This document shows positions 32,169 to 64,000 of a stretch of 64,000 nucleotides of DNA, piece by piece. Below the pieces are notes generated by a model. That model did not search any database and was not told the DNA's origin. It saw nothing but the letters and a program-made list of their open reading frames with translations. The first letter of the stretch is position 1; every line of letters begins with the position of its first letter. Origin of the DNA: Rusavskia elegans (lineage: Eukaryota > Ascomycota > Lecanoromycetes > Teloschistales > Teloschistaceae); contig SAUG01000085.1 of assembly GCA_011316305.1 (NCBI GenBank), forward strand, positions 339,705 to 403,704, given 5' to 3'. The position numbers and the translations under genes were made by a program.

Positions 32169-32182
32169 AACTAATATTTGAG

Positions 32183-32188
32183 TTTTTT
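32183..32188 (+). terminator. Possible Pol III terminator
   Basis: TTTTTT about 15 bases after the tRNA-like unit. In this AT-rich block T-runs are common, so the assignment depends on the tRNA-like locus being real. Confidence 0.35.
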
Positions 32189-35855: not shown

Positions 35856-36224
35856 TAGATTGGCCGGTTCGAGTCGGATTTCCGTCGAACCGTCGGATAC
35901 CCGACCCGATTTTAGTAACCCGATCCGGACCCGATCCGATTATATTATATATTTAATATATTATTATATTAATATTTTAATAAAAGTAATATATCTAGAT
36001 AATATATTTAGTTCTACTACGGATTGTCTAGCTGGCGTAGTTAATTAATTAGAAATTTTTTAGTAAATTCGTATAAAAGTTATATAAGCTTTATATTTTT
36101 ATACCAGGGTTTAGCGCCAAGATCTAGTCTTGGCGGATCGAATCGGGTTACGATTTAGGACCCGAAATCCGGTCGGGTCGGGTTGGCCAACCCGGATTCG
36201 AAACCCGATCCGACGGTCAGTCTA
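35856..36224 (+). repeat. Short inverted-terminal element, copy 4
   Basis: About 369 bp, from TAGATTGGCCGGTTCGAG to CGATCCGACGGTCAGTCTA; the two ends are inverted matches. The AT-rich core with CTAGCTGGCGTAGTTAATTA is shared with copies 1 and 3. It keeps more CpA/TpG than its surroundings. Confidence 0.75.
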
Positions 36225-37082: not shown

Positions 37083-37455
37083 ATAAAAGTACTAGCGCCG
37101 GATTGATTGATCTAAAAGATTAACTAGCGTAGAGTCGCGCTAGCTATAAAAGCCGTTTTTATAAGCCGATACTAAATATCTGCAGCTATTTTCGACTATA
37201 GCGGCTATTTTTATCTATATATATCGCTTTTTATTTCTATTAGATAGCTTCCTTCGTTAGTTATTAATATAATTACTAAATACCGCTCTATTCTTCTCTT
37301 ATAATTATCTATATAACGAAGACGCCTTATAATATTAAAATCTTACTTCTACGGCTATATAGAACTAGTTTTAATAATCTATATTAGGATTTCTTTACTA
37401 TTTAGTAGTTCGGACTACGCCTATAGCTATAGCTAGATTTAAGCGTAACGCCTAT
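37083..37455 (+). repeat. 0.38-kb dispersed repeat, copy A
   Basis: Shares a continuous order of blocks with 41174-41552, including TAGCG-TAG-GTCGCGCTAG (an imperfect palindrome), ATAAAAGCCG, ATCGCTTTTTATTTCTATTA and TTAGTAGTTCGGACTACG. No coding content recognisable after RIP. Confidence 0.65.
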
Positions 37456-37628
37456 TAATGAATAGAAATACTATAATTTTACGATTTACTATATTAGTTT
37501 CGTTATCCCGCTTTATAGATCGGATCGATATTATTAATATAGCTATATCTAGTATCTATAAAGGAAATAAAAGATTTTTAAAGATATAGTTTATCTAGAT
37601 AAATATCTACCTCGTATTATATCCGAAC

Positions 37629-38084
37629 TAGATTGGCCGTCGGATCGAATTTCGAACCCGAGTTAACTAATCCGACCCGATCCGAATCGGGTTAGAAAAT
37701 TCTATAGTTTAATTTAAATCGAATTTCGAATCGGATTATATAATCCGATCCGATCCGATTAATCTACTAAATCTATATAACTCGTATAACTCTAGTATAA
37801 AAATTATATAAATTATTTGATAAAAATTCTAATTAATTAATTATCTCAGCTAGAAAAGTTCTAGTTAGATGAATTATATTATCTGAAAAATATTAATTAT
37901 ATACTATAGTAAATAATATAATATATATTATATTTAATTATTAATAAAAATTTAGTAGATATCCGAGTTCGACCCGGGTTTAACCCGGACTCGATCGTTT
38001 AGTAAATCGAACCGGTTCAACCTACTAAAATCGGGTCGGGTTCCCGACGGTTCGACGGGAACTCGACCCGAAATAGTTAGTCTA
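37629..38084 (-). repeat. Short inverted-terminal element, copy 5
   Basis: Uninterrupted copy of about 456 bp, from TAGATTGGCCGTCGGATCG to CGAAATAGTTAGTCTA. It is the reference that identifies the nested copy 2. Both ends carry CCCGATCCGA-type motifs. Confidence 0.75.
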
Positions 38085-39257
38085 ATTCGAATTAGTTTTT
38101 AAACGAAACGATTAAAATTCTATTTATAATATTATTTCCAGTAAAAATATCCTTTAATCAAATATAGTTCTATATAGAGGACTATTTCAATAATCCGGAA
38201 AACGAAAGAAAAAATAAAATATTCTAGATCTTTTATAGCTTTAGAAATCTAGCTATAATAATAAAAAAGACCTTCGAAAATAATAATAAAAATAGAATAA
38301 TAGAAAAGAAACTAATAGTTTTAAAATAGTAGAAGTCGATAGCTATTTATATTATTTAATTTAGGATATTTATTTATTAAACTAACTAGAGAGATTTAAC
38401 TCTAAAAGTTTATTTTTCTAAAAAGGATTCTATTTGAAAATTAAAAAAACTATAATAGCGATTAAAGAATCTAATTCGCTAGTAGTATTTATCGAACTAG
38501 CGACTAGAAAATAAAAAATAATAGCTTTTATAAATAGAAAGAAAGAAAGTAAAATTACTAGAAAATTATATAAGGAAATTATAGAATATATTTTATAATA
38601 TTCTATAGAATAAAATCGGATTAAAGATATAAACATTGAAATAAAAAATAAATTTATTAAAGTTTCTATTTTTATAATAATTATAAATCTAAAAAAATAT
38701 ATCGTTCTAGATAATAAATAAAAAAAATTAATTTCGGGAATATCAATATAGAAATGTTATATAGAAAAAATAATAGAATTATAGATAATATATTTTCTCG
38801 CGTATAAAAACCTTTGATATAAGGAGTTCGATTTTATATCGGGAATGGACTACAAATAAATACGCGATTTAAATATTGAATTTAAGAAAAAAAACGATAT
38901 ATATAAAACTAATATCTAGAAAAAATATAAATACCTACTATAGAAGTTAGCTAATAGATATAATAAAACCTAAAAATTAATTAAAAATTATAGATAAACT
39001 ATTTCTAAAAAATCTAAAAAAGAAAATATAATTATATACTAAATTAAAGTTTTGATATAAAATAAAAAATTCTAGATAAAAATCTATATATATAATTTAA
39101 AAATAAAAATTTTAGCTATTTTCTATTATTACCGTCTTAGAATAAAATAATAGCTAAAAAATAAAAATTAACGGAAATAATAAAAGATTCGGAAATAATA
39201 TATAATATCAAAATCTAATTCGGAATTAGAAAAAATATAGATTTTATTTTTTATTTA

Positions 39258-40350
39258 TTTTTTTGGTATTCGGTTAACCGTCGATTCCGTAAGCAATTCA
39301 CTTCAGTATTATTACGCTAGCGTTAGAAATACGTTATAAAAACTAATACTCTAATCTAATTAATTTAAACCAAAAAATTATATAAAATTAATTCTAATCT
39401 ATTCCGTAATACGCTCGTAGTCAAACTTTTATAGTTTATTTAAAATAGTAGTAGAATTTTCGTATATATATATACTTTATAGTCGTTTCTTTTTTATTTC
39501 CTTTTACTAGTATCTGTAACTACTACGGACTGATTTAATTTATACTATCGTATCTGAAATACGTATTTTCCGTAATAGCCTAGGCTATAGACTAATATAT
39601 ATAGAACCTTTACTAATACTATAACTACGAATATATTTTTCTAATTTAAAGAAATAGAGCTTAAAATTGCCGAATTCGAGCTATTCGATTACGTCGACCG
39701 AATTTTCGTTAGTCCGTCTACTATAACGGACTTCGAATTCTAAGATTCGGTAGTCTTAAATATAATACTAAAACTTTATATTTCGAATCTACCCGAGTTA
39801 TATAGCTTTAGTAACCGTATTAGATTTCTAGTAAAAGCTCTTATCCTATTAGATTTCGAGTAGGAATCTAAACTAGTAGTTAAACTAGCAGTTAAACTAG
39901 CAGTCGTCGAGTATCTAGATAGATTAATAGGCCGTCTAGATTCGGGTACGACTATAGACGAAAACGAAGTAGTATAGATAAAAGATAGTATTACCGCCTG
40001 GTAGATAGTCTTGAAAGCTATATTAGTAGCTTATAATCGTACGTATTTCGAAATAGTATAAGGGAATCCAGAAGGCCGCTCGCTCTTCCGTATATATAGA
40101 ACGATATTTATTTCTGGAATTGCGTAAAAGACTGCGAGTAATAAAAGGTATATTTATATAAGTAAGGAATTGTAATTTAATAAAGGATATAATAGAATAA
40201 AAACGATCAACGCTGTAAATTTTAGTTGACTTTTAACTGCGAAAATTCTTTACTATACAAGCAATAACTATTGTTGCCGTATAAAAACTACGGTAATAAA
40301 ACGAATATATATAATAATTCAATTATAACCCCGGACAGAGACCCTATAAA
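39258..40350 (+). repeat. 0.9-kb dispersed repeat, copy C
   Basis: Begins TTTTTTGGTATTCGGTTAACC and ends near AATTCAATTATAACCCCGGA. It has the same block order as the copies at 27657 and 29830 but is longer (about 1.09 kb). Moderately mutated. Confidence 0.55.
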
Positions 40351-41173
40351 AGGGGAAAAATAATTATTAAAAATTTATTTTTAGATATTCTTTTATACGC
40401 TTATAGTTTCTATCGAATAAAAGAAATTAAATTTTCTAAAAAATTAATCGAAAATTTTTAAATCTAATCTAAGTATTAATTTATCGGACGCTTTATACGC
40501 GGCTAATATATAAAAATCGGAAGAATAAAATATAATCGAATTATTAAATTTATTAAAATAAGATAAAATATATTATTTCTAAATAATAAATTCACTTTTA
40601 TATTTTTTAAAAATATGATAACATCTAATAAAATATTTTTATTTTCTAAAAAGTCGACGAAATTCCGACTTTTAAATAAAATAATAATTATAAATTACTT
40701 TTTTAGAGTTTAGAAAGAATTCTATATAAAAATAAACTTTTATATACTTTTTAACGATGTTTTTAATATTAGAATAAAGTTTATTTTTTTTTATTTTTAA
40801 GACGACGCCCTGAATACTAATAGTTAGAAAAGAAATAGAAAAAAGGGATCAAAAAACGTTTACGTAGTATTAGAAATTGAAAGGTTACAGAATTTCTAAA
40901 TACAAATACACTCGCTATAAATATTACTTTTAACTTTTATTTTATATTTTTTTAAAAGACTATAAGTATATAAACTATAATGGAAAGGTATAGTAATATC
41001 TTTTCACTAAACTCGACAGAAGGATTTTATTTAGTTTTATTTTCGAAAATATATAATATAAAGATTAAAATAGAAAAAAAAAATTAAAAAAATAGGAATA
41101 GATTTAATATACTATATAGAATAAATAAATACTCTAGATAAAAAACGGTATAGAAATAACCGTATTATAGTTA

Positions 41174-41552
41174 TAATTATATAAAAGTAAAAAAGCCGGA
41201 TTAGTTAATCTAAAGAACAAACTAGCGTAGAATCGCGCTAGTTATAAAAGCCGCTTTTATAAACCGTTATTAAATATTTACGGTTACCTTCGGCTATAGT
41301 AGCTATTTTTATCTATAAAAATCGCTTTTTATTTCTATTAAATAGCTTTTTTCGTTAGTTATTAATATAATTATTTAATACCGTTCCGATCTTTTTTTAT
41401 AATTATCTATATAACGAAAACGTTTCGTAATTTCGAAATATTATTTCTATAGCTATATTGAACTATATTTAATAATCTATACTAGGATTGTTTTACTATT
41501 TAGTAGCTTGGACTACGTCTACGGCTATAGCTAGGTTTAAACGTAACGTCTT
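41174..41552 (+). repeat. 0.38-kb dispersed repeat, copy B
   Basis: Second copy of the repeat at 37083-37455, with RIP-type C-to-T and G-to-A differences between the two. Confidence 0.65.
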
Positions 41553-42570
41553 TTAAAATATAGGAACTTTATATTATTACGAATATAGTATTATCTTCTA
41601 ATTAATTTATAGCTATATTAAAAAAGTTTATACGTACGGATAAATAAATAAAAAAAAGTTAATAAACGATAACTACGAGGTATATTTATTTATAAAAGTT
41701 TTTATATTAAATTATCGATAGAAAAATATATTATATTTCTATATAACTTTAAATTGAAATTTTAGAAAATCGTTATTTATATCAATTGAACTAAAATATT
41801 TATTTTATTATAGTATATTTAATATTAATATATTTATATTTGATTTATTTTACGAACTCTCGGTTGCTCGGGCACTAAAGTCGAAATAAATTTACTAAAT
41901 ATAAAATAATTAAAAAGTTAGAATTTCGCTAAAATTATTTACGAAAATGCGTACAAGATTGATTTTTTAGATTGTAATTATCTGATTGATCAATTCGGGT
42001 ACGCTATATTCAATATAGGAAAATTATAACCATAGAACATTTTAGTGATTTTTATAGATTATTTTAGTTTAATGATAAAATAGAATGCGCGGATTATAAA
42101 CTCTAGATATTTATCGATTTTACATCGTCGCAGATTTATTTCTCTATTATTACAGAATGAATCTAATAAATTCTATAATTTATACTTTTTAGAATCCAGA
42201 AAAAAGATAGTAGTAGTATTTTTCGGAACGGAATATAGAAATTTCCGATTCGAATCCGATTCGAACGGGATTTTCTAAAAATAGTAATTTTTGGAATAAA
42301 TTCTAGAAAATCTAATATAGACGTTAAAACAGTATATTTATATACTTTAGCTTTTTTATATATAAAAATACTAGAAAATTCAATTTACGCTAATTTTACG
42401 TCTATACTAGCGCGGTAACTCATTGATTCGTCTCTTATATAGAATGAACCCGCGAAAACCCGTTATATCCTAATCTGTCTATATCTTAACCCGGAGATAT
42501 CCTAACCCGGTTCGGGTCTGGTCGGAGATTCTAGAACCCGACCCGATCCAACCCGTTCCGAGGTCTAAGT

Positions 42571-45110: not shown

Positions 45111-47332
45111 CGGGGGTATATTCCTATTAGCTGTATAAACCTTAGTTATCTCCTATCTCTATTAGATTCCAGTCGGTTTCCTCGTCTATTTCTATTCTAT
45201 ATATAAGGCTTTTTAACGTTCTATAATTACGTATAAAGTTTTAAAACTTTAATAGATATATTCGAATACCGTTATAAATAGATAATTTAAACCGGTATCG
45301 GATATATTATTAGAGGTTCTTTATCTATATATAACGTAGGTTAATTATAAACTTTAGTCCTATAGCCTATATTCTAGATTTTTAATTTCGTTAATAAAAA
45401 TCTATTATCTAATTACGGTTATATATAAAGGTAATACTATTCTAGATATATAAATAATTCTATTAACTCTTTTAAATCTAGCTTTTTTATCGATTATAAA
45501 TATAGTATTTAGCGATTTATAAAATCTATAATAGTATCTACTATAGTAGAAATAGAAGTAATCGGATTAGTATATAATACTTCTATATAGATAATAATTT
45601 ATATATAATACAGCTATTATTTCTTTCGGACTAGAATTAAATACTATCTATAAAAGCTATATATAACTAAAGGTCCAGTATTAAAAGCTATATATAAAGA
45701 AATTAAAAATTTAGAAGTTACTATTACGTCTACAACTTTATAGAAATACTCTGAAAGATTGGCTAGACAAGCGAATCCAATTATCTATAGCCGCCCGTAG
45801 CCGCTATAGCCGTTCTTCTTAGTAGAACTCTTAGTAGAACTTTTAGTAGGCGGCTACCTATCGGTTACTACGGCTACTTTTAATATATATATTGTTTATT
45901 ACTCCTATAGATAGCTTCTTTTTTTAATTATTTGTTATAAACCATTTGAACTGCTTGGAATTTATATAGAGTTCAGTGGATATAGAAGTACTGGCCGATG
46001 GTACCGGTTGACTAATACGCTGACTAAGTCCCGTTAACCGCGGCTTATTAGCTCTACGAGATTCGTTGTCTAATTAGGCCTAGCGTTTAGCTTTATCCGT
46101 TTATTTATAGAACAACTTTTTATCTATATAGAAATATTAAACTATTATTATTATTATAAATCGATCTATAATAATTAATAATAATAAAAAGTTTGTTTAT
46201 AGATACTATATAATATATATATAGCGTTTATAAATACTAATTCCTATTTATAAATACTTCTAATACCAGTAACGTTATTCGTATTATCGGAGATACTAAC
46301 TATTTTAATTAAATATACTTTTTTAGCAGTATTTACTAATTAATTACCGTTTTTTACTAATTATACCTTATATATTTAGCTACGATAGGAACTAAACGGC
46401 TTTTTAATTAAATTCTAATTAGTTAAAATATCGATAGACGAGCTATTCCTATTTTTTAACTATACTACTATCCTTTTTAGATACTAGCTCGTCGAATTTA
46501 TAGATAAAACCGGTTCTAGATACGCTATTAACTAGTATTAAAATATACTAGACTCGTAAAACTTCGTATATAATAATTATAGCGATTTTAGATTCCCGAA
46601 GACCGAAGCAAATAATACTATAGGCGCTAAAATAAGATTATTTTCCCGGCTATCTCGATCGTTTAAATAGATCGATAAATAGTTAGATAACGGAATAGTA
46701 GTACGAGCTGCTATTAAACGCTTTAGAAAGAATATAACAGAGTTCCGGAACGACCCTATATATATACGAGCTATTATAAATTATTAAATCTCTATTAAAA
46801 GTAAAAAAAAGGAAGATATAATCGATAAAACTCTAGCGGACTTTTCTACTTTATTTAAATCGGGTATAATCCGGAAACTAAATATAACGCGAGATTATAG
46901 CTCGGACCCGGTAGTAATATAATTTTTTAAAAAACTAGAAAAATAGAATATCGTAATCTAAATAGAATTTATAGAACTTCGTTAATAGAATTAATAGAAG
47001 ATAAAAATATTTTTACTATTATCTAAATTTTCTGCGTTTTTTACTAGAGCCGATAAATATAAAAAGTTCGTCGTAGATAATACTAGCTATCTCTACTCTT
47101 TCTATAATAATAAATCCGCCGAAATCGGGCTTTATATCGAATATATAGATAAAAATATCTCTTTCCGCGACGTCTATATTTTTACCGAACGAGTTAAAGA
47201 TATTTATTACTAGATTAAATATTAAGGTTAAACAGAACCTATAGATATATCTTCGCGGTAAAGTTCTATAATAGTATTCTAACGAACTTTCGGATATAGA
47301 AAAGGAATATTTAATAAAAGATCTCGATATTA
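45111..47332. repeat. AT-rich RIP-mutated segment before the subtelomeric array
   Basis: TpA-rich, CpA/TpG-poor. It includes a short less-mutated patch at about 45950-46080 (ACTGGCCGATGGTACCGG) and an AGTAGAACTCTTAGTAGAAC repeat near 45820-45855. A decayed transposon is likely, but no transposase motif can be read. Confidence 0.6.
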
Positions 47333-50300
47333 TACGGTGCGGAGGGTTAGAGTTAAGCGGGCATCCTATAGGATTTAATTAAAATCGGTCGGTCGTACTA
47401 TATATTAATATCGTCCTATTAATACTGTTCCGGTACGAAAGTTCTATAGAATTATTTTATAATAAACCTCTAGCTTTTAAAATAAAAATAATTATAATAG
47501 TTCGTAGTATATCTAACTATATAGTCGCTGTTAGTTTTAATATTCGTCTAAAACCTGCTTCCTACCGTTTCCCGCTACTACCGCTAGTATAATTATTATT
47601 TAGGGCGAGAGAAGATTTAATTATCTAATTAATTACCGGGAAGATTTAATTATCTAATTAATCTAATAGTAATCTATATAGTTATCTATATATATATATA
47701 TTAAGAAGATTTAAAAGTAGTAATTAATTAGCTAAAGGTCTTACCCTTTACTTTTCTATAAAACGGTAGATTCTATACGAATTTCCTATTTCTATTCTAT
47801 ATTCCTTCTATTCTATTTTTACTAGCTCTTTTTTAAGTTTAGCGAAGCTATTACTAGCCTACCTAACCCTTAATATAGATTATAGATAACTTCCCGCTGC
47901 CGTTAAACGGGAACGTAATACTATATAATAAAGATAGTAGTATATAAAATAGTAGGCCGTTTATTAATAATCTAAAATTCCAGGTACTATCTAATTCTAT
48001 TTTTTATTACTATAAAATCTATTATAGGCCTCTCTTCTATTATAGTACTATTAACGATCTATCTAGGCGGCTATCTCTTATTTAAATAAGTAAAAAAGCC
48101 TACTAGCTCTATAATAAGTCCCTAATAAAAGTTAAAGTATACTAGCCTATAATCCGTTCTATATATTAAAAAGGACCTATCCTTCCCGATAAAATACTAG
48201 TTCCCTACTTTTACCGCCTAATCTAGATATCGAATATTAAAGTAATAGGTTTTCTTATTTCCTATTCGTTACTTCGTACTTATAATTAAAACCTAACTTA
48301 CGTATTTTCTAATAATATTAGTAATAGTCCTTTCCCGTTATATAATAATAGCCGATTTTTTATATCGCGTAAATTAGATATCTATTCCTCCTTTTTCTCT
48401 ATTAGAACCGCTTTACGATACTTTTTACCGGTTAACCTCTTTTATAATTTCGAAGTCTAGCGTTAAGTACTTCTACCGGAACGTAATATATCTATCTAAC
48501 TACCTAAAATACTTTAAAATAGGCCTAAAAAATACTAAATAGAAAAAGAAAAGAAAAAAGCGGCTAAAAATTATAAAATAATATTTAAAATAAAAAAAGC
48601 CTTAAATTAAGAATTTTAGATAGTTTTATCTACCGCCTTTATTCTTTCTATTCCTTTTACCGAAGCCCTAAAGGTATCTATTAGTACGTACTATAATTCT
48701 AAATAGACCTTTATAGTTTTAGGACTACGTCGTACCCCGTTTAAATTCTATATCGATTCTAGAATATAACTCTAAAGCTATATATAATTATATCTTCGAA
48801 GCTAATAGTTTAATTAGAACCTTTTTCTAGTAATAGATTAGTCCGGTATAGAAAGCTCTAGGGGTTTATTCTACCTATAGTAGAACTATAACTTAAACGT
48901 TCGATTTTACTATCTATTTTTACCTTTTTTTCTACCGTTATTCTATTCTATAGAGTCGAAAATCGCTTCCCTAATAATAATATACTTTACTAGATTAATA
49001 TTCTATATCGACTACTAAGCGATAAGCGTCCTTTATTTCGCTTTACCGGTAATATATTAATTTTTACTTTTCCTATTAGAATTTCCTACTCGATAAATAT
49101 AGCCTAATATAGAGAAAGACGCTTATATAAAGGGTTATAAACTATATTTCCGGTATAAATTAAAGATCCTATTCCCGTAAATAGTATTCGAACTCTATCC
49201 GTCTCCGGTAACAATTTAGGTACTAAACCGATCCTTTATATACCTTTAAATAATAGACCTGGACTTCTACTATAGCTATCTAATACCTTACTGTTACTAT
49301 CCTTCTATAGCGTACTAGTAAAGGATAATAATATTCTTTATTCTATAGAACTACTAGCCGTACCGCTTCTATTACCGCCGTAATAACTATAGCCTATAGA
49401 ATTTAAATAGGCTAATAAAATCTTTATAACAGCTTTTCGACGCTTATATAATTATAGTAAACCTTCTTTCTATCTCTATCTATTATTAGATCGCTAACCG
49501 ATATTCTAGCTAGCTACTATTCCGACCTTCTACCTAATATTTAGAGCTTTAGCGAACTTGCTATATATTAAAAATCGTTTAGTTTCTAGAAAGCTTTATC
49601 TACTCTATTTCTCCTATTTTTATACTATTTAGTAATATTACGGCGTAATAATTCTACTTACCCGGATTTCTATAATATTAATTAGTACGTTTTCTTTACT
49701 AGAAAGTCTATTCTACCCTCCTTTAATATTAGCTGTAGCGAGAAGGCTTTACTTAAATAACTTATAATAGAAAAGTAAAACAACTTTTAGATCTATACTA
49801 CTATTAATATCGATAATATTATCCTCGCTTTTATAATTCTAGTAGTTTACTTCTATCTATTTTACTAGTACTTCTATCCGCCTTTCTATTAATATATTAT
49901 ATAGAACCCGCGCTTTATAATCTATAGCTATAGTATTTATAAATTTAAATAACTATATATTAGCTTTAGTTCTACTAACCGAAGGCGAAGCTTTAAAACC
50001 TATATATATTTCTCTAATATAATATAAATAGAATAGGATACTATCTATATAGATTATAATCTTTAATTAGGCTAGATAGATTTAATTATCTTTTCTACTA
50101 TTCGATTAACCTGCCCTAAATATATATCCGCCTGCTATTTTTAAAGTTTTAAAGCCGCCTATACTAATATATCCGTTAACTAGAAGCTATATTTCTTTAG
50201 ATTATTAGCTCCTATAGATATCTACTACTCTATCCCGGCTAACTATCTCGACCCTTTATAGGTAGAAGTAATAAAGCGCGCTAATACTATATAGGAGTTT

Positions 50301-50605
50301 AAAAAGCTTTTCTTTATTCTATCGGCTTATAATTTAAAGGCTAATATTATATATAATTCGCTATAGAAAGCTCGAAGCGCTATAAAGTAGATACTAGCTT
50401 ACTAATATAATATATCTAAGGAAATCGTTCCTCCTAATAAGTCCTATCTCGATTTCGGTTTCGATAATTTTATTAAAACTTATAATAGAACTCCCTATTC
50501 TAGTATTACCCTGCTTTATAATATATACTACTTTTAAATTTAAAAGGATTATTTCCAGAATCTAGACGAAAGGCCTATAGACTTTAAAGTATCGATTTAT
50601 CTATA
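47333..50605 (+). repeat. Subtelomeric 6-kb repeat, copy 1 (3'-truncated)
   Basis: First unit of a head-to-tail array. It starts at TACGGTGCGGAGGGTTAGAG (its telomere-like part slightly mutated) and matches copies 2 and 3 base block by base block. It stops after about 3.27 kb, at the equivalent of about 59.9 kb in copy 3, where copy 2 begins abruptly. Heavily RIP-mutated. Confidence 0.85.
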
Positions 50606-53600
50606 TTGTACGGTGCGGAGGGTTAGGGTTAGGCGGGTATCCTATAGGACTTGGTTAAAATCGGTCGGTTATACCGTATATTAATATTATCCTATTAATA
50701 CTATTCCGGTATAAAAGTTCTATAGAATTATTTTATAATAAATCTCTAGTTTTTAGAACTAAAATAATCGTAATAGTTTATAGTATATCTAACTATATAG
50801 TCGCTATTAGTTTTAATATTCGTCTAAAACCTGTTTCCCGCTGCTTTCCGCCGCTACCGCTAGTATAATTATTATTTAGGACGAAGGAAGATTTAATTAT
50901 CTAATTAATCGCCGGGAAAATTTAATTATCTAATTAATCTAATAGTAATCTATATAGTTATCCGTATATATACGCGTTAAAAAGATTTAAAAGTAGTAAT
51001 TAATTAGCTAAAGGTTTTACCTTTTACTTTTCTATAAGGCGGCAGGTTCTACGTAAATTTCCTATTTCTACCCTTGTTCCTTCTATTCTATCTTTACTAG
51101 CTCCTTTTTAAATTTAGCGAAGCTATTACTAGCCTACCTAACCTTTAATATAGATTATAGATAACTCCCCGCTACCGTTAAATAGGAATATAATACTATA
51201 TAATAAAAATAGTAGCGTATAAAGTAGTAGGCCGTTCGTTAATAATCTAAAATTCTAGGTACTACCTAGTTCTGTTTTTTATTACTATAAAGCCTGCTAT
51301 AGGCTTTTCTTTTACTATAGTACTATTAACGATCTATCTAGACGGCTATTTCTTATTTAAATAGGTAAAAAAGCCCGCTAGCTCTATAATAAGTCCCTAA
51401 TAAAAGTTAAAGCGTACTAGCCTATAATCCGTTCTATATACCGGGAGGGACCTATTATTTCTAATAGAATATTAGTTCCCTGCTTTTACTACCTAATCTA
51501 AATATCGAATATTAAAGTAACGGGTTTTTCTACTTCCTATTTATTATTTTATATTTATAATTAAAACCTAATTTATATATTTTCTAGTAATATTAGTAAC
51601 GGTCCTTTCCTGTTATATAATAATAGCCGACTTTTTATATCCTTACGTCGCGTAAGTTAGATACTTATTCCTTCTTTTTTTCTATCGGAACCGCCTAATA
51701 ATACTTTTTACTAGTTAATTCCCTTTATAATTTCGAGGTCTAGTACTAAGTACTTCTACCGGAGCGTAATATATCTATCTAACTACCTAAAATACTTCGA
51801 GGTAGACCTAAAAAATACTAGATAGAGGAAGAGAAAAAGGAAGCGGCTAAAAGTTATAAAATAATATTTAAAATAAAGAAAGCTTTAAACTAAAAATCTT
51901 AAGTAGTTCCGGCTACTGCCCTCGCTCTTTCTATTCTTTCTACTAAGGCCCCGAAGGTATCTATTAGTACGTACTACGGTACTAAATAGACCTTCGTAGT
52001 CCTAGAACTATATTATACCCCGTTTAAATTCTATATCGACTCTAGAATATAATTCTAGAGTTATATATCGAAGCTAATAGTTTAATTAGAACCTTCTTTT
52101 AGTAATAGATTAGTCCGGTATAGAAAGTCCTAGAGGCTTATTCTACCTACGGTAGAACTATAATCTAAACCTTTAATTTTACTATCTATTTTTACTTTTT
52201 TTTCTATTATTATTCTATCCTATAGAATCGAAGATCGCTTCCCTAATAATAATATACTTTACTAGGTTAATATTCTATACCGACTACTAAATAATAAGTA
52301 TTTTTTATTTCGCCTCGCCGGTAATATATTAATTCTTATCCTTCCTATTAGAGTTTCCTACTTAATAAATATAGCCCGATATAGGGGAAGACGTTTATAT
52401 AAAGGGTTATAAACTACGTTTCTAGTATAAATTAAGGATCCTATTTCTATAAACGGTATTCGAGCCCTATCTGTTTCCGGCAGCGATTTAAGTATTAAAT
52501 AGATTCCTTATATACCTTTAGATAATAGACCTAGACTTCTACTATAGCTATCTAATACTTTACTACGGTAATAACTATAGCCTATAGAGTTATTACTACT
52601 ATAATAACTATAGTTAGTACTATCTATATTACCGCCGCTATAACTACGGCCTATAGAGTTTAAATAAGCTAATAAAATCTTTACGACAGTCTTTTAATAT
52701 TTATATAATTATAGTAAACCTTTTTTCTATTTCTATCTATTATTAGATCGCTAATAGATATTCTAGCTAGCTACCGCCCCGACTTTCTATCTAATACTCG
52801 GAGCTTCGGCGAACTCGCTACGTATTAAAGATTATTTAGTCTCTAGAAAGCTTTATCTATTTTATTTCTCTTACCTTTATACCGTTTAGTAATATTATAG
52901 CGTAACGATTCTACTTACCCGGATTTCTATAATATTAATTAACGCGCTTTCCTTGCTAGGGAGTCTATCTTACCTTCCTTTAATATTAGCTATAGCGAGA
53001 AGGCTTTACTCGAATAACTTATAATAAAAGAATAAAACGATTTTTAGATCTATACTACTACTAATATCGATAGTATTATTTTTACTCCTATAATTTTAGC
53101 GGTCTACTTCTATCTATTTTACTAGTATTTCTACCTGCTTTTCTATTAATATATTATATAGAACCCGTGTTTTATAATCTATAGCTATAGTATTTATAAA
53201 TTTAAATAACTATATATTAGCTTTAGTTCTGCCGATTAAAGGCGAAGTTTTAATACTTATATATATTTTCCTAATATTATACGAATAGAATAGAATACTA
53301 TTTATATAGATTATAATCTTTAATTAGTTTAGATAGATTTAATTATTTTTCCTACCGTTTAATTAACCTGTCCTAAGTATATATCCGCCTGCTATTTTTA
53401 AAGTTTTAAAGCTGCCTATACTAGTATATTTACTAACTAGGAGCTATATTTTTTTAGATTATTAGCTCCTATAGATATCTACTATCCTATTCCGGCTAAC
53501 TACTTCGACCCTTTATAGATAGAAGTAGTTAGGCGCGCTAATACTACGTAGGAGTTTAAAAGGCTTTTTTTTATCCTATCGGCCTATAATTTAAAGGCTA

Positions 53601-56600
53601 ATATTATATACGATTCGCTATAGAAAACCTAAGGCGCTATAGAGTAGATACTAGCTTACTAATATAATATATCTAAGGAGATCATTCCTCCTAATAAATT
53701 CTACCTTAATTTCGGCTTCGATAATTTTATTAAAATTTATAGTAGAGCTCCCTATTCTAGTATTACCCTGCTTCGTAATATATACTGTTTCTAAGCTTAG
53801 AAGAATTATTTCTAGAATCTATATAAAGGGCCTATAGGCCTTAAAATATTAACTTACCTATTCTATTTTATTTAAAACCTCGGCTCTATATCTATAGAGC
53901 TAACTATATCTAACCTTTTCTATTATAAGAGTTTTATAGCTTACTATAAATTATATAATACTATTAAAGATCTTTTAGTTATATTATTTAAAGATATCTA
54001 TCCTTTTAGTAGTCGCGAATTTAAAGCCTTTACTTTTAAATAAACTAAATAGGATAATTAGGCCGCGAATAACTTTATTTATAATAGATAATATGCCGTA
54101 GCGTGCTTCTAATAACGTACTAATAGCTTTAAAGATTACCTAGATTTACTTTTTAATTAACTTTTTTCCTATAATCGCTAGATTTAAGCCTTTTTATATA
54201 TTAAAGGCCGTCTTAATAAATATTTTAAGCAGGCGTACAAGAAGGATATCTACTATAGAGTATAGGATAAGTACCGGGTTAGTTTTACTCTTTTCTGAAT
54301 ATTAGATTTAAATTAATAGCCGGATATAGTTTCTATTTAGCTATTATATTTTCTATCGGATATATCGCGGAACCTTTTATCTAGGCCGGGTCTAATATAG
54401 CTTTAGAACTATATTTCTAACTTCTCTATAGAATTCTATTAACTATATATTTTTATTTCTACCCGGGATATTATTACTTTTATCTCGACTTTTTTAAATA
54501 TTTAACTTCTCCTCTTTAAAGTATTAGCGGTATAATCTATACCGGTAGCCGGTCTATCTCTAGCTTCGCGGGAAAAATAAAGAGCTAATAGAAATATATT
54601 TTATATTACTATTAATACTATACGTTTTACTATAGAAAGAACCGAACCGGCGTAATATCTTTCCTTTATAAAAAAGAAGTAGTAGACGAAATAGGTACGC
54701 GTAGTTACTACTTTAGAAAAAGATAATATAAAAATAGATACCGACCCTATTTATATAACTAGATTTAGCTTATAATACTAAGCGATAATAGACTGGTATA
54801 GTATTATTTTTTTTTTTCTAGATATAATTTTCTAGTAGGGTATTTTTTCTTTCGATACTCAAATTATCTACTAATTAGGTATTAAAAATAGGCTTTAGTA
54901 GAAGTTTAAAGGTATATATAATATCGCTAGGATCTATATAAAGTAAGACCGGTTCTTTATTTTTTTCTAAGCCCGCTTTTATTCCTAGATAGACGAAGCT
55001 TAGGTAGTACCTTCCTTTAACTATACTACCTTACTTTAGTATTATTACTATAAATCTATTTAACTCGCTGTATACTTTATACTTGTCGATTATAATAAAT
55101 ATATTATCTATAAACTAATTAACCGGATAGTAGACGATATAATCGATACCGAATAGTAGGCCGAAGAAGTTATAAAAGCGCCTAAACTATAAACTCTAAA
55201 GTAGTAGTTTTATACGCTTTAGTTTAATAAGAAGTAAAACCGCTAGTATAGAACTCTTATAGTCTAGATCTTGAAAGAGACTCGAGCGCTATATCTAAAG
55301 CGCTTAACTAAACGGAAATAGTTAGGCTTTAAACTATTAACTTTCCCCGCTATATAATAATTTCTAGGAGGTAGATTTCCTTATATTACTCTCGTTTATT
55401 AGTCTTTTAAGTCTAATAATTCCTATTTTAGCTAGTATTTTAAATCCGGCTTATAGAAAGATCGGCTATAGACCCTTTTCGCGTAGGATAACTATAAAGA
55501 TTACTATAAATAGAAATAGAAATATATATCTTTTTAAATCTTAATCCGTAAGCTCTATAGATACCTTATTAATATAGGAGGTACTAAATATAGTTTAACC
55601 TTTTTATAAAAGATATTTTATATTACTTCTACTATTCTATATACTATTCTTTAATTTAACTATAATAATCTGGCTATAATAATCTCCGCGAAATAAGTAT
55701 ATAGTATAGGGAGAGCCTAAAAGATCCGAAGCCTTTTTAAAATAGCTCGGACCGGATAGTATTTAGCTAGAATTCTAGTTAACTAGGCCGATAACGTAGA
55801 ATATATATAACGCGGCGATAGAAGGAACTAGAAAAAACTTAGCGATATTATTAGAACCGGCAGTTTTAAGACTATCTTATAGAATATTCTAGAGCAGGTT
55901 TTCCTATTCGAACTATATCTATTTAATAATTATAGTACCTTCGGTATACTAGATTTAATATTTTCCGATTATCTCTATATTTTCTACTAAGAGCTAGATT
56001 AGCTAGCCGTCGTAGTAGAAGCCTAAGAGACGAGTTTTAATAACGATAATCTAGCCGATAATCCCGAGTTTCTTAACTACGATAGAAGTAAAAATTAGAC
56101 CTGGTTTAGTTATAATAGATTACTAGATTATAGTCTACGGTAAGTAACTAGCGCCGATATTAATAATATAATTCTAGAACTATACCTATTAATAATATAA
56201 TCCTAGAATTACGTCCTTTAGACCTAGCGGTTTACTAAATACTCCGATATAAAAAGATCTAATTAGGTCGAAAGAAGATAACTTTCGCCGGTAGAAAGGA
56301 ATACTAAGATAGGTTACCTATAGATATATCTATAAGGTATTTTTACGTTGTTCTACTATTTATCTACTTAACTAATAACTACGGATTTTATAGATTCGGA
56401 AATCGATACTTCTCGCTAGATATACCTAGACTATAGTTTATTCCGGACGAGCTTTTTCTTTAATTCTATAAGGGCTGGACGTAATCCTAGAATAATAAAA
56501 GCCTTAATATTATAAGGACTGGATATAATTCTAGGATAATAAAAGAGCGCTAGTCCTAATATATTTACTATATATTATATATTAATACGCTCCTCTAGTA

Positions 56601-56650
56601 AAGTAGTTTACTTTTACTTTATTTTACTACCTATTTTCGCTTTAGAAATA
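50606..56650 (+). repeat. Subtelomeric 6-kb repeat, copy 2 (full length)
   Basis: A 6045-bp unit from TTGTACGGTGCGG to CGCTTTAGAAATA, directly followed by copy 3 in the same orientation. It begins with two telomere-type repeats (GGGTTAGGGTTAGG at 50619-50632). The right end has a tandem motif (AGGGCTGGACGTAATCCTAG twice). Strong RIP. Confidence 0.9.
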
Positions 56651-59600
56651 TTGTACGGTGCGGAGGGTCAGGGTTAGGCGGGTATCCTGTAGGACTTGGT
56701 TAAAATCGGTCGGTCGCACCGTATATTAATATCGTCCTATTAATACCGTTCCGGTACGAAAGTTCTATAGAATTATCTTACGATAAACCTCTAGCTTTTA
56801 GAACTAAAATAATTATAATAGTTCGTAGTATATCTAACTATATAGTTGCTATTAGTTTTAATATTTATCTAAAACCTGCTTCCCGCCGCTTCCTACCGCT
56901 ACTGCTAGTATAATTATCGCTTAGGGTAAGAAAAGATTTAATTATCTAATTAATCGCCGGGAAGATTTAATTATCTAATTAATCTAATAGTAACCTATAT
57001 AGTTATCCGTATATATACGCGTTAAGAAGATTTAAAAGTAGTAATTAATTAGCTAAAGGTCTTACCCCTTACTTTTTTATAAGGCGGTAGGTTCTGTATA
57101 AATTTCCTATTTCTACCTTCGTTCCTTCTATTCTATTTTTACTAGCTCCTTTTTAAGTTTAGCGAAGCTATTATTAGCCTACCTAACCCTTAATATAGGT
57201 TATAGATAATTCCCCGCTGCTGTTAAACGGGAACGTAATATTATATAATAAAAACGGTAGTATATAAAGTAGTAGGCCGTTCGTTAATAATCTAAAACTC
57301 TAGGTACTATCTAGTTCTATTCTTTATTACTATAAAGCCTACTATAGGCCTCTTTTCTACTGCAGTACTATTAACGATTTATCTAGGCGGCTATCTCTTA
57401 TTTAAATAGGTAAAAAAGCCCGCTAGCTCTATAATAAGTCTTTAATAAAAGTTAAAGCGTACCAGCCTATAATCCGCTCTATATACCGGGGGGGACCTAT
57501 TATTCCCGATAGAATACTAGTTCCCTGCTTTTACCGCCTAATCTAGACGTTAAATATTAGGGTAACAGGTTTTCCTATTTCCTATTCGTTGCTTCGTACT
57601 CGTAATTAAAACCTAACTTACGTATTCCCTAGTAATATTAGTAACGGTCCTTTCCTGTTATATAATAATAGCCGACTTCTTACGTCCTTACGTCGCGTAA
57701 GTTAGATACCTATTCTTCCTTTCTCTCTATCGGAACCGCCTAACGATACTTTTTACCGGTTAACCCTTTTCGTAATTTCGAGGTCTAGCGCTGAATACTT
57801 CTACCGGAGCGTAATACGTCTATCTAACTACCTAAAATACCTCGAAGCAGGCCTAAAAAGTACTAGACGGAGGAAGAGAGGAAGGAAGCGGCTAAAGGTT
57901 ATAAAGTAATATTTAAAGTAAAGAAGGCCTCGAATTAAGAATCTTAGGTAGTTCCGGCTGCTGCCCTCGTTCCTCCTATTCCTTCTACCGAAGCCCCGAA
58001 GGTATCTATTAGTATATACTATAGTACTAAGTAGACCTTCGTAGTCCTAGGACTACGTTATACCCCGTTTAAATTCTATATTAACTCTAGGATATAACCC
58101 TAGGGCTACGTATCGAAGCTAATAGCTTAATTAGAACCTTCCTCTAGCGATAGATTAGTCCGGTATAGAAAGCCCTAGGGGCTTATTCTACCTACGGCAG
58201 AACTATAACCTAAACCTTCGATTTCGCTATCTATTTCTACCTTTCCTTCTATTGTTGTCCTACCCTATAGAATCGAAGATCGCCTCCCTAATAACGATAT
58301 ACTTTACTAGGTTAATATCCTATACCGACTACCGAGCGATAAGCGTCCCTTACCTCGCTTCGCCGGTAATATATTAACTTTTACCTTTTCTATTAGAGTT
58401 CCCTACTCGATAAATATAGCCCGATATAGGGGAGGACGCTTATATAAAGGGTTATAAACTACGTCTCCGGTATAAGTTAAAGATCCTGCTCCCGTAAACG
58501 GCGTTTAAGCCCTGTCCGTCTCCGGCAGCGACTTAGGTACTAAATAGATTCCTTATATACCCTTAGATAATAGACCTAGACTTCTGCTATAGCTATCTAA
58601 TACCTTACCGCGGTAATAACTACAGCCTATAGAGTTATTACTACCGTAATAACTACGGTTAGTACCGCCTATATTACCGCCGCTATAACTACGGCCTATA
58701 GAGTTTAAATAGGCTAATAAAATCTTTATAACGGCCTCTCGACGTTTATATAATTATAGTAAGCCTTCTTCCTACCTCTATCTATCGTTAGATCGCTAAT
58801 AGATACTCTAGCTAGCTACCGCCCCGACCTTCTACCTAACGCTCGGAGCTTCGGCGAACTCGCTGCGTATTAGAGATCGTTTAGTCTCTAGAAAGCTTCG
58901 TCTATTCTATTCCTCCCGCCTTTATACCGTTTAGTAATATTATAGCGTAATAATCCTGCTTACCCGGATTTCCGTAATATTAATTAGCGCGTTCTCCTCG
59001 CTAGGAAGTCTATCCTACCCTCCTTTAACGTTAGCTGTAGCGAGAAGGCTTTACTTAAACGACTTATAATAGAAGAGTAAGACGACCTTTAGATCCGTAC
59101 TACTACTAATATCGATAATATTATCCTCGCTCCTATAATTCTAGCGGTCTACCTCTATCTATTTTACTAGTACTTCTGCCCGCCTTTCCGTTAACGTATT
59201 ATATAGAACCCGCGCTTTACGATCTATAGCTATAGTATTTATAAGCTTAAATAACTATATATTAGCTTTAGTTCTGCCGACCGAGGGCGAAGCTTTAATA
59301 CCTATATATATTTCCCTAATATAATACGAACGGAATAGGATACTACCTATATAGGTTATAATCTTTAATTAGGCTGGATAGACTTAATCGTCTTTCCTGC
59401 TATTCGATTAACCTGCCCTAAATATATATCCGCCTACTATTTTTAAAGTTTTAAAGCCGCCCGTACTAGTATATCCGCTAACTAGGAGCTATATTTCTTT
59501 AGATTATTAGCTCCTATAGATATCTACTACTCTATCCCGGCTAACTACTTTAACCCTTTATAGGTAGAAGTAGTAAGGCGCGCTAATACTACGTAGGAGT

Positions 59601-62600
59601 TTAAAAGGCTTTTCTTCGTCCTATCGGCCTATAACTTAAAGGCTAATATTATATATAATTCGCTATAGGAAGCCCGAAGCGCTATAGAGTAGATACTAGC
59701 TTACTAATATAATATATCTAAGGAGATCGTTCTTCCTAATAAGTTCTACCTCGACTTCGGCTTTAATAATTTTATTAAAACTTATAGTAGAGCTTTCTAT
59801 TCTGGTATTACCCTGCTTCGTAATATATACTGCCTCTAAGCTTAGAAGGATTATTTCCAGAATCTAGACGAAGGGCCTGCAGGCCTTAAGGTATCGACCT
59901 ACCCGTTCTATCTTACTCGAGACCTCGGCTCTATATCTATAGAGCTAACTATATCTAACCCCTTCCGTCGCGAGAGTTTTATAGTTTACTATAAATCCTA
60001 TAATACTATTAAAGATTTTTTAGTTATACTACTTAAGGATATCTATCCTTTTAGTAATCGCGAACTTAAAGCCTTCGCTTTTAAATAAGCCGAATAGGAC
60101 GATTAGGCCGCGAATAACCTAATTCGTAATAGGTAATATACCGCGGCGTGCTTCTAATAACGTACTAATAGCTTCGAAGATTATCTAGATCTATCCTTTA
60201 GCTAACCTTTTTCCTATAATCGCTAGGTTTAAGCCTTTTTATATATTAAAGGCCGTCTTAACGAATACTTTAAGTAGGCGTATAAGAAGGATATCTACTA
60301 TAGGGTACGGGATAAGTACCGGGTTAGCTTTACTCTTTTCCGAGTATTAGACTTAAGCTAATAGCCGGATATAGCTCCTGTTCGGCTATTACGTCTCCTA
60401 TCTAATATATCGCGGAACCCTTTATTTAGGCCGGGTCTAATATAGCCCTAGGACTATATTTCTAACCTTTCCGTAGAGTTCTATCGACCGTATACCCTCG
60501 TCTCTACCCGGGATATTATCGCCTTTATCTCGACTTTTCTAAATACTTAACTTTTCCTCTTCGAAATATTAGCGGTATAACCTATACCGGTAGCCGGTCT
60601 ATCCCTAGCTTTACGGGAAGAGTAAAGAGCTAATAGGAGTATACTTTATATCGCTATTAATACTATACGTCTTACTATAGGGGGAACCGAACCGGCGTAA
60701 TATCCTTCTTTTATAAAAAAGGAATAGTAGACGAAACGGGTACGCGTAGTCCCTACTTTAGAAGAGGATAATATAGAAGCAGACGCCGACCCTGTTTACG
60801 TAACCAGACTTAGCTTATAATACTAAGCGATAATAGACCGGTATAGTATCGTCTCTTATCTTCCGGATATAATTTTCTAGTAGGGTATTCCTTCTTTCGA
60901 CGCTCGAATTATCTACTAATTAGGTATTAGAAACGGGCTTTAGCAGAAGTTTAAAGGTATACGTAATATCGCTAGGATCCGTATAAAGTAAAACCGGTTT
61001 TTCGCTCTTTTCTAAGCCCGCTTTTATTCCTAGGTAGACGAAGCTTAGGTAGTACCCTCCTCTAATCGTACTACCTTACTTTAGTATCGTCGCTATAAAT
61101 TTATTTAACTCGCCGTATACCTCGTACTCGTCGACTATAATAAATATATTATCTATAAGCTGGTTAACCGGATAGCGGACGATATAGTTAATACCGAGTA
61201 GTAGGCCGAGGAAGTCGTAAAGGCGCCTAAACTATAAACTCTAAAGCAACAGCTCTATACGCTTTAGCTTAATAAGGAGTAAAACCGCTAGTATAGAATT
61301 CTTATAGCCTAGGTCCGGAAAGAGACTCGAGAGCTATATCTAGAGCGCTTAACCGAACGGGAACGGTTAGGCTTTAAGCTATTAACTTTCCCCGCCGTAT
61401 AACGATTCCTAGGAGGGATATTTCCTTATATTACTTTCGCTCGCCAGTCCCCTAAATCTAATAATTCCTACTTTAGCCAGTATTTTAAATCCGGTTTATA
61501 GAGAGATCGGCTGTAGGCCCTTTTTACGTAGGATAACTATAAAGATCGCCGGGAACGGAAGTAGGAATACGCGTTTTTCCGGGTCTTAATCCGCAAGCTC
61601 TATAGATACCTTATTAACGCCGGAGGTACCGAGTATAGCTTAACCTTTTTATAATAGATACCTTATATTGCCTCTACTATCCTATATACTATCCCTTAGT
61701 TTAACTATAACGATCTAGCTATAATAATCTCCGCGAAATAAGTATATAGTATAAAGAAAGCCTAAGAGATCTGAAGCTTTTCTAGAATAGCTCGGACCGG
61801 ATAGTACTTAGCCAGGATTCTAGTTAACTAGGCCGATAACGTAGAACGTACGCGACGCGGCGATAGAAGGAACTAGAAAAAACTTAGCGATATCGTTAGG
61901 ACCGGTAGTCTAGAAACTACCTTATAGAATATTCTAGGGCGGGTCTTTCTACTCGAGTTATATCTACTTAATAATTATAGTACCCTCGGTATACCAGATT
62001 TAATATTCTCCGATCGTCTCTACGTTTTCTACTAGGAGCTAGATTAGCTAGCCGTCGCAGCAGAGGCTTAAGAGGCGAGGTTTAACGATAACGATAATCC
62101 AGCCGATAATCCCGAGCTTCTCGACTACGACGGAAGTAAGAATTAGATCTGGCTTAGTTATAATAGATTACTAGATTATAGTCCGCGGTAAGTAACCAGC
62201 GCCGATATTAATAACGTAACCCTAGGACTATACCTGTTAATAATATAATCCTAGGACTACGTCCTTTAGATCTAGCGGTTTACTAAATACTCCGATATAA
62301 AAAGATCTAACTAGGTCGAGGGAAGATAACCTTCGCTAGTAGGGAGGAATACTAAGGTAGGTTACCTATAGATATAGGTATAAGGTATTTTTACGTCGTC
62401 CTACTATTTATCTACTTAACTAATAACTGCAGACCTTATAGACTCGGAAACCAATACTTCTCGCTAGATATATATAGACTATAGTTTATTCCGGACGAGC
62501 TTCTTCCTTAATCCTATAAGGGCTGGATATAATCTTAGGATAACTAAAGCCTTAATACTATAAAGGCTAGACGTAATCCTAGGATAATAAAAGAGCGCTA

Positions 62601-62699
62601 GTCCTAATATATTTACTATATATTATATATTTAATACGCTCCTCTAGTAAAGCAGTTTATCTTTACCTTACTCTACCACCTGTTTTCGCTTTAGAAATA
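56651..62699 (+). repeat. Subtelomeric 6-kb repeat, copy 3 (full length, least mutated)
   Basis: A 6049-bp unit with the same ends as copy 2. It keeps more CG-rich codons and more CpA/TpG than copies 1 and 2. Near the start TACGGTGCG (56654-56662) is repeated in inverted form as CGCACCGTA (56715-56723), so the telomere-like stretch lies in the loop of a potential hairpin; one telomere-like unit here reads GGTCAGGG. Most of the unit could once have been coding. No reverse transcriptase, transposase, helicase or recombinase signature could be recognised by eye. Confidence 0.9.
59342..62350 (+). pseudogene. RIP-inactivated long reading frame of the 6-kb repeat, unidentified
   Basis: One phase can be followed for about 1000 codons without an indel. 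It is interrupted by many TAG/TAA codons that would be CAG/CAA before C-to-T change. TGA is rare everywhere because TpG is depleted, so stop type alone is weak evidence. Better support is the charged, protein-like composition of this phase: for example VRKETRELYLERLTERERLG near 61315-61375, RRERKQEYAFFRVLIRKLYR near 61550-61610, and YKKDIYYRVRDKYRVSFTLF near 60280-60340. An additional upstream phase at about 57860-58560 looks Pro/Ser-rich and coding too. Family unknown. The same frame is present, more damaged, in copies 1 and 2. Confidence 0.5.
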
Positions 62700-63300
62700 A
62701 AACCTATTAAATATCTGCGCGTTACTCGCGTCTATTAGCATATTACTCGGCTATTATTAATATATAAATACTTTTTATCTTCTACCTTACTTTTCTTTTT
62801 CTTATATATTATACTTAGTACTACCTGCTCGTATATTTCTATTTCTTTTTCGATTATAACCTCGTTAGTACGTTCTTCTACTCTTTAATATAGCTCTAGG
62901 GTTACGATCTACTCTATAGCGTTAGATATAAGCTATATTTTATAGCTTCCGAGTACTCGAATTACTATATTTAATACTAACTCTACCGCGGCTTTCGGTT
63001 AATTTACCTTAGTTTAGTCGCAGCGAGTTATTATCCTAGGATTACGTCTAGCCCTTATTACTTATTATCCTAGGATTATATCCAGCCCTAATTATACTAA
63101 TTTATTCCGACAGTCTATATCCCCGACCCCTAAAACTATATAGTCCTTTTCCCTTCTCTAGGTACAGTTACCCTACGGTCTCTAAAATACCCCTTTTAAG
63201 GTATCCAGCTCGTACTAGAACGTAGTCCTAGGTCTATATAGTACTATTAAAGGAAAAGAAAAGAATACGGACTATACGAGCTAGGCTATTAATACCCGCT
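62700..63300. other. Subtelomeric segment between array and telomere-capped frame
   Basis: Partly RIP-mutated. Two copies of TATCCTAGGATTA..TAGCCC/CAGCCC at about 63033-63095 are inverted relative to the GGCTGGA..TAATC(C/T)TAGGATA pair at about 62520-62585 near the end of copy 3. No gene readable. Confidence 0.5.
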
Positions 63301-63939
63301 GGACCTAGGAAGACTACTACTCTAAATCTATTAGTAGACGTAAGCCTAGCTTTAGCCGAACTACTACTGCCTAAGGATCTACTACAGTTCCTCGACGGTA
63401 TTCGGGTTATTCTTCCTAAAGAAAGCGGACTAGATCTCGTAGGCAGCGACGTCTCGCTATACGGGTATCTCGGCCTCGCTAATACCAGCGAACTAAGGGA
63501 GCTCTATAGCTATCTAAGCGTACTACTAGACAGACTTACTACTATCGTTAAAGAAGGATACTAGAAAGAATAAATAGGGAAGGAGCTAGCGAAAACGCAG
63601 ATTAAAGTTAGTAAACTATTTAGCTATATTTCCTAGCAGAACGAGATCGATATTAGCGGTTTTAATCCTACCTCCTATACGTAGCTATTACCCGTCGAAA
63701 GGAGTACTTTTTATACGACCTATCGACCTTTCCTATACTGGATCAAGACGCTATACGATATCCTGACGAGTAGCCGAGGCCTGGATATCTCGACGCGTGC
63801 CCCCGAGGGCGATCCGGCTTACCGGGATAAAGAGCACTTCTACTGGGCTTACGCCTCCGAGGATTGGCATCGAGTCTATTACCTGGTCAAGAACTGGCTC
63901 AAGAAGTCGACTAAAAAGGCGGCACGTTCGGGAAGTTAG
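63301..63939 (+). pseudogene. Truncated reading frame ending inside the telomere
   Basis: A single phase of about 212 codons. Four internal stops (TAG 63562, TAA 63571, TAG 63634, TAG 63682) are all explained by RIP of CAG/CAA. From 63685 on it is open, with normal codons and almost no RIP; the last part reads YRDKEHFYWAYASEDWHRVY. The final codons GGA AGT are followed by TAG at 63937-63939, contributed by the first TTAGGG repeat. The gene was therefore cut and capped by telomere repeats, or this is the end of a telomere-linked element. Family not recognised. Confidence 0.6.
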
Positions 63940-64000
63940 GGTTAGGGTTAGGGTTAGGGTTAGGGTTAGGGTTAGGGTTAGGGTTAGGGTTAGGGTTAGG
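63936..64000 (+). repeat. Telomere, TTAGGG repeats
   Basis: Perfect TTAGGG repeats, ten full units plus five bases, running to the window edge. The G-rich strand reads 5'->3' toward the right, as expected for the right end of a chromosome. Confidence 0.98.

Follow-up and report, generated by a model that had tools for sequence, protein, structure and literature searches.

Head-to-tail copies of a probable telomere-associated element of at least 15 kb at contig ends of Rusavskia elegans

The genome of Rusavskia elegans contains a repeated element which we read, with a probability of roughly two in three, as a telomere-associated mobile element of at least 15 kb, joined to chromosome ends without telomere repeats. 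Its fixed inner end, the varied sequences to which this end is joined, the variable telomere side, the single orientation, the location at ends and the mixture of subfamilies within arrays together favour repeated attachment. The window, that is the whole stretch of 64,000 nucleotides that was analysed, corresponds to positions 339705-403704 of contig C205, in an assembly of 44.16 Mb and 217 contigs, and carries one of the arrays.

Self-comparison of the window revealed three copies in the same direction, beginning at 47328/47329, 50604/50605 and 56650, and a repeat search in the 40-64 kb region recovered the same three-copy families. The pairwise alignments comprise 6067 columns at 86.3% identity, 3279 at 85.1% and 3294 at 84.5%, and bear out the abutting, same-direction units proposed in a sequence-only reading; mutually, the copies are 13.6 to 14.8% different. 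Copy 1 (47329..50604, plus strand; GC ~28%) spans element positions 1 to ~3276 and, as had been claimed, is cut exactly where copy 2 starts; copy 2 (50605..56649, plus strand) spans positions 1 to ~6047 and is cut by the start of copy 3. The latter (56650..63934, plus strand), which has the lowest load of RIP-like changes among the three, spans positions 1 to 7285 and is directly followed by the terminal telomere (63935..64000, plus strand; 11 copies of the 6-base repeat). The array is thus real, but it is part of a larger element, and both its boundaries and its unit had to be corrected. The left edge lies at 47328/47329 rather than at 47333; the right edge, previously set at 62699, moves to 63934, as the match between copies 3 and 2 stops at 62699 because copy 2 is cut there, whereas the homology of copy 3 with other contig ends goes on to the telomere. 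Indeed, the 20 further genomic matches of region 63100-63930 are all on contigs bearing an element start, and the copy on contig C90 can be aligned with copy 3 as far as the telomere; these findings indicate that copy 3 itself reaches the telomere. The 6.05-kb stretch taken as the repeat unit is a truncated piece, 15.04 kb being carried on another contig (C44).

A 601-base query from the proximal part of the element gave 35 matches in the genome (all 35 candidates scored), and a search with the start region identified at least 37 true starts on 24 contigs; this number is a lower bound, since 40 of the 55 candidates were scored, and three of the 40 hits match only the 51-base tail of a preceding copy. 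All 37 starts are directed at a contig end no more than 33.4 kb away. For 25 of them, on 17 contigs, the end pointed to bears telomere repeats; the other 12, on 7 contigs, face ends without telomere repeats, which are possibly not chromosome ends. On two short contigs the opposite end is the nearer one (C120, and C115 for its inner start), but telomere repeats are present at the end toward which the start is directed. Telomere repeats were placed on at least 30 contig ends (28 ends plus C91 and C115, with 3 of the 166 telomere matches unplaced), and the element is found on 17 of them. The expectation that copies would lie at ends, have one start and point outward was largely confirmed, and the proposal of a telomere-associated element is probably right, given the 37 starts that run outward from one common start to a nearby contig end.

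The element family is at least 15 kb long. When eight contig ends were aligned pairwise, common sequence extended to 15.04 kb from the start in C44, and C115 and C120 have sequence in common for about 0.3 kb more; no common far end was found among the contig ends compared. The number of matches falls with distance from the start, the 37 starts being followed by 25 main matches for the 5.4-6.05 kb part (besides 7 short inverted ones), 21 for the 6.45-7.28 kb part and 17, two of them partial, for the 9.3-10.5 kb part, which is the helicase region; the matches so counted all lie on start-bearing contigs. The 13.4-14.6 kb part has 12 main matches on start-bearing contigs, together with 11 short ones. 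Partial relatives of this part, 75 to 82% identical, occur on two contigs without starts (C213:96623-97265 and C151:40003-40894; three partial matches). In C15 the same part sits only 5.4 kb from the start, so that most of the element middle is missing there. The final 1.2 kb of C120 is AT-rich and has many matches at no more than 78% (40 of 260 candidates scored). An AT-rich repeat within the window (32501-33303) is 69% related, on the opposite strand, to the ~14.8-15.6 kb part of the C120 copy.

The inner junction was read in 36 of the 37 starts, C98 being left out. By best match these starts fall into one common register, with 49 to 64 of 65 bases, and the first bases are ATT(G/A)TA in 34 of them, C15 and C90 deviating. 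The fixed terminus begins ATTGTACGGTGCGGAGGGTCAGGG and faces away from the contig end; the terminus of copy 1 with its preceding base (47328..47362, plus strand) reads TATTATACGGTGCGGAGGGTTAGAGTTAAGCGGGC. The 150-base flanks of the 36 starts are mostly unrelated to one another, apart from two similar pairs (C45b/C45c and C12b/C58y) and a few others that share 17 to 34 AT-rich bases. A telomere unit was found within 34 bases before the start in none of the 36, which speaks against an insertion into telomere repeats of the MoTeR/FoTeR/SART type, and within 150 bases in a single case (C114a, 148 bases away). Ten flanks are the inside of an earlier copy, at nine different points; in C58a, ~24 bases of other sequence lie between the earlier copy and the terminus. 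At the eight copy-copy joins that were mapped, the last base ahead of the terminus agrees with the interrupted copy, five times exactly and three times allowing a transition, and 0 to 2 identical bases are shared; joins with different break points were mapped on five contigs.

In the less mutated copies, the string GGGTCAGGGTTAGG lies 15 bases from the terminus. It agrees with the telomere repeat at 13 of 14 positions, the best match in the 5.96 kb of copy C11, on which the score was computed; copy 3 has the identical string, contained in its terminus (56649..56683, plus strand, including the preceding base). In 100 first-order Markov shuffles, windows matching the telomere to this degree averaged 0.02. 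The sequence-only reading had given GGAGGGTTAGGGTTAGGCGG, containing two telomere-type units, as the start of every copy; this is correct for copy 2 (terminus and preceding base at 50604..50638, plus strand), the sole window start with two consecutive TTAGGG-type units, but copy 1 starts with GGAGGGTTAGAGTTAAGCGG and copy 3 with GGAGGGTCAGGGTTAGGCGG. The double unit is mostly a product of mutation, a perfect TTAGGG pair being present in 3 of the 36 starts, although GGGTCAGGGTTAGG is still telomere-like. One C-to-T change in TCAGGG is enough to derive a perfect pair from GGGTCAGGGTTAGG, and thus the pair of copy 2 is no proof of a telomere seam. Telomere-seeded recombination via perfect TTAGGG pairs was considered and found unsupported, owing to their presence in so few starts. 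An Rfam search at E <= 5 on a 6.3-kb stretch of C11 gave no ribozyme match at the fixed end, and the terminus folds no better than shuffled sequences.

On the distal side, copies are mostly limited by telomere repeats or by the start of the next copy. Of the 17 telomere-bearing element ends, a base-by-base comparison covered 14 and could place 13, whose telomere repeats begin at 13 different points of the element, from ~1.7 to 14.3 kb. The element has, in this way, a fixed centromere-side end, with 36 starts in one register, and a variable telomere-side end, with 13 plus 8 varied joins. The ends of C196 and C120 extend past the element references, and the final sequence of C94 and C98 has no match to them. 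The C94 end finishes in another element, with an RVT_1 match containing 4 stops (C94:58579-59061) about 150 bases from the telomere repeats. Two copies of C45 (a and b, with starts at 24417 and 18540) have a common end point, at element position ~5885, a sign of a later duplication inside this array.

The claim that no known domain is visible holds for the window, since its copies end short of the helicase, but longer copies give weak SNF2 and Helicase_C matches. A six-frame Pfam scan (E <= 1) of the 14.6-kb copy C92 detected SNF2-rel_dom (E 0.017 and 0.012) and Helicase_C (E 0.0078), in order, between ~8.1 and 10.6 kb and on the strand reading toward the telomere, with no other match on either strand. 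The second part of the helicase could be aligned without indels in eight copies, of which three matched SNF2-rel and two Helicase_C at E <= 0.1, with a best E of 0.00096; both domains are under the Pfam cut-offs in the copy shown. Across copies the weak matches range from E 0.0035 to 0.017 for SNF2-rel and from E 0.00096 to 0.0078 for Helicase_C. A genome search with SNF2-rel gave 33 matches, one of which lies in the element (C116), above the cut-off and with 8 stops. C92 also contains, in order, the strings LADEIGLGKT, IGTPILN and XAGARVIKIG, which may correspond to SNF2/helicase motifs. Within the window, copy 3 has a 110-codon stop-free piece (63232..63564, plus strand) and, in the same frame, an 83-codon one (63685..63933, plus strand) cut by the telomere; in C92 the frame of the first piece, with interspersed stops, continues to the Walker-A-like LADEIGLGKT. 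This upstream part of the helicase frame has no Pfam match of its own in the window, the helicase region gave no hits against PDB profiles, and protein searches with it returned no homologs. A count of positions at which every copy has a stop codon, made in order to recognise frames, gave many in each frame. The weak matches suggest that an SNF2-type helicase frame, in broken form, is present in the longer copies beyond the window.

The first 5.96 kb of C11, the least mutated copy, gave no domain (six-frame Pfam, E <= 1), and neither did the last 2.4 kb of C120, the only stretch beyond 15.3 kb that was scanned. An RT was found neither in the 14.6 kb of C92 nor in the 5.96 kb of C11, by a scan that a Penelope-type enzyme could escape. 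RVT_1 is represented in the genome by at least 150 hits, the number obtained from scoring 150 of 422 candidates; many contain 5 to 9 stops, and hence an RT of a common type in C92 should have been seen. Both C12 and C94 have an RVT_1 hit on the contig-end side of an element start; the offsets and relative strands of these two hits differ, and they are taken for parts of other elements. Starships, Cryptons and Helitrons have as hallmark a tyrosine recombinase or a Rep/Pif1 helicase; no Pfam match to such enzymes was found on either strand of C92 or C11, where heavy mutation limits the sensitivity. DEAD and RecQ likewise gave no match, the weak SNF2-rel and Helicase_C matches being the only ones in this heavily mutated sequence. 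An enzyme that could carry out the attachment, whether integrase, recombinase or RT, was not detected in the scanned copies, which counts against the attachment model.

Among 13 aligned copies nearly all differences are transitions, with 637 transitions versus 0 transversions between C92 and copy 3, and 1893 versus 4 between C44 and C92; transversions affect 0 to 1.05% of sites among the pairs listed. CpA and TpG are strongly depleted (index 0.04 to 0.17), as RIP would give, and only 35 to 54% of the between-copy transitions are in a CpA/TpG context. Three subfamilies can be defined by 53 shared transversion sites, and the window array is composed, from inside outward, of subfamilies I, II and III. 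Within it, copies 1 and 2 are separated by 29 transversions, copies 2 and 3 by 22 and copies 1 and 3 by 25, while the closest relatives are C115b for copy 1 (3 transversions), C58b for copy 2 (4) and C92 for copy 3 (0). Since each copy is most closely related to one on a different contig, local tandem duplication is an unlikely origin for the window array and was rejected (13 of the 37 starts aligned). C90 is a mosaic of subfamilies II and III, with the switch within ~3.2 to 4.1 kb of the element. As the differences are almost entirely transitions, the subfamilies based on transversions may serve to reconstruct, array by array, in what order events took place.

The RIP load of the window copies, over the first 3.3 kb, is 0.465, 0.427 and 0.198 going outward. 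An outward drop was observed in 7 of 10 adjacent pairs from six arrays, on the basis of 3.3 kb in C205, C33, C115 and C58 a>b and of 600 bases in the others; the load rises in C114, C58 y>a and C45 b>c, and the C33 pair falls over 3.3 kb but is level in the 600-base region (0.387 and 0.388). The outward fall was considered as a clock and is only partly supported in this role. At the tips, the pooled load is 0.33 in the last 150 bases versus ~0.40 further in (11 of 12 tips with data), a weak indication that the tip is protected from RIP. The last part of copy 3 (63635-63934) is almost without RIP-like change, the derived state being present at ~0 of 69 and 1 of 54 variable sites.

Overall, we favour attachment to uncapped ends, which fits the data better than block recombination or nested insertion. 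A chromosome end that has lost its telomere would receive a new copy, attached by its fixed terminus, the acceptor being an earlier copy, broken at its end, or some other DNA; the tip would then erode, until it is healed by telomerase or receives another copy, and RIP would mutate the copies after attachment. Within this model, there is nearly an even chance that the chromosome end primes the reverse transcription of an RNA, antisense to the helicase frame, whose 3' end would bear the telomere-like stretch in the manner of Terminons; a serious candidate, at somewhat under even odds, is that an extrachromosomal copy, made of DNA and having a single defined end, is joined to the chromosome. It is conceivable, if rather doubtful, that the element is a DNA-level counterpart of HeT-A, encoding a helicase but no RT of its own, with a programmed end that is joined to uncapped ends and healed by telomerase.

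An unlikely explanation is that of an ordinary subtelomeric block of the Y'/TLH type, which recombination or break-induced replication would have spread between ends, possibly at times when telomeres failed, and in which the common start would be a shared block edge. Subtelomeric repeats with a helicase are known from several fungi (PMC5576322, PMC4522978, PMC3017866, in the passages cited), and in P. oryzae foxtail strains the 4-kb repeat is described as forming tandem arrays, variously truncated and tied to telomere failure (PMC8381367); signs of recombination are present here too, in the C90 mosaic and in the common end of C45 a and b. However, homologous invasion should join copies at a matching internal position, whereas the broken copies, interrupted at different points, are joined to position 1 of the next one with 0 to 2 shared bases; furthermore, the flanks are mostly unrelated and without a nearby telomere unit. 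Still less probable is an ordinary transposon inserting repeatedly into itself in subtelomeres, its distal remnants being lost by terminal deletion. This would account for mapped inner copies that are cut at the next start and for the 13 tips cut inside the last copy, and C15, C213 and C151 hold distal pieces that are unexplained; random insertion, however, would not direct 37 of 37 starts outward, no resumed remnant was seen, the 25 matches of the 5.4-6.05 kb part and the 17 of the helicase region are all on start-bearing contigs, and no matching second end is known. An assembly artefact is very improbable: although the assembly is in 217 contigs, several of which stop inside the element, the divergence of the window copies and their subfamily-specific transversions make false joining unlikely, and break points vary on five contigs.

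End-attached head-to-tail arrays are so far known for a few retroelements. In HeT-A arrays, each incoming copy is attached to the eroded tip of the preceding one. HeT-A, TART and TAHRE of Drosophila, as described in the passages cited here, share with the present element the head-to-tail layout, the single orientation, the fixed centromere-side end and the eroding other end, but they are non-LTR retrotransposons with the poly(A) toward the centromere, and they replace telomerase (PMC5537684); in the present case no RT was detected, and TTAGGG repeats are present at the ends. The bdelloid Terminons/Athena are likewise described as large, with extra genes, head-to-tail arrays, telomere-side truncation and a telomere-complementary stretch near the centromere-side end; unlike the element parts scanned here, they have an RT and, beside the telomere-complementary stretch, a hammerhead ribozyme (PMC6431247). 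As both RT and ribozyme were sought and not found, membership in the HeT-A or Terminon retroelements is not claimed.

Among fungi, the parallel with Y' and Magnaporthe (MoTeR) elements drawn in the sequence-only reading stands for the layout and fails at the junctions, where the 36 starts are without a telomere unit within 34 bases, while amplified MoTeR copies are reported to be separated by telomere tracts (PMC8381367). The P. oryzae 4-kb repeat, MoTeR and the F. oxysporum FoTeR are also found at chromosome ends as tandem and truncated copies, but in the accounts cited they encode an RT and have telomere sequence between or beside the copies (PMC8381367, PMC12857005); the subtelomeric non-LTR family 4 of Zymoseptoria tritici similarly differs in its RT and in the telomere repeats at one end (PMC4522978). 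DHX_G198 of Colletotrichum higginsianum resembles the present element in its length (11.3-18.5 kb), helicase, location at chromosome ends, single orientation and internal TTAGGG; in the description cited, however, full-length copies of DHX_G198 and its derivatives are single at each end, in contrast to the truncated head-to-tail copies found here, and its helicase C and DEAD domains are called RecQ-like, with DUF3505, instead of the SNF2-type matches (PMC5576322). RIP-mutated helicase repeats are shared with X3X3R8 and X26 of Parastagonospora nodorum; X3X3R8 is Rad5/SNF2-like and described as a gene cluster, and X26 is subtelomeric and of RecQ type, unlike the SNF2-type matches (PMC3017866, as far as cited). 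A description of the present element was not found in the literature searched, which consisted mostly of titles and abstract openings, with few subscription journals. Fungal end-attached arrays with an SNF2-type helicase and no detected RT, beside ordinary telomeres, would record the rescue of uncapped ends.

Apart from the array, the window holds in a row, at 540-9116, a Cytochrome P450 (540-1985), an AMP-binding piece and a NAD_binding_4 (reductase-type) piece, which together resemble a small biosynthetic cluster that includes a carboxylic-acid-reductase-like enzyme. The P450 piece shares 89% identity with a protein from a Rusavskia elegans genome, and a protein of Xanthoria aureola, likewise in the Teloschistaceae, ranks lower among the matches; by this single gene, the DNA would come from a lichen-forming fungus in or close to this family. 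A tRNA gene is located at 11800-11880 on the minus strand, and region 27042-41913 is AT-rich, with several direct and inverted repeat pairs.
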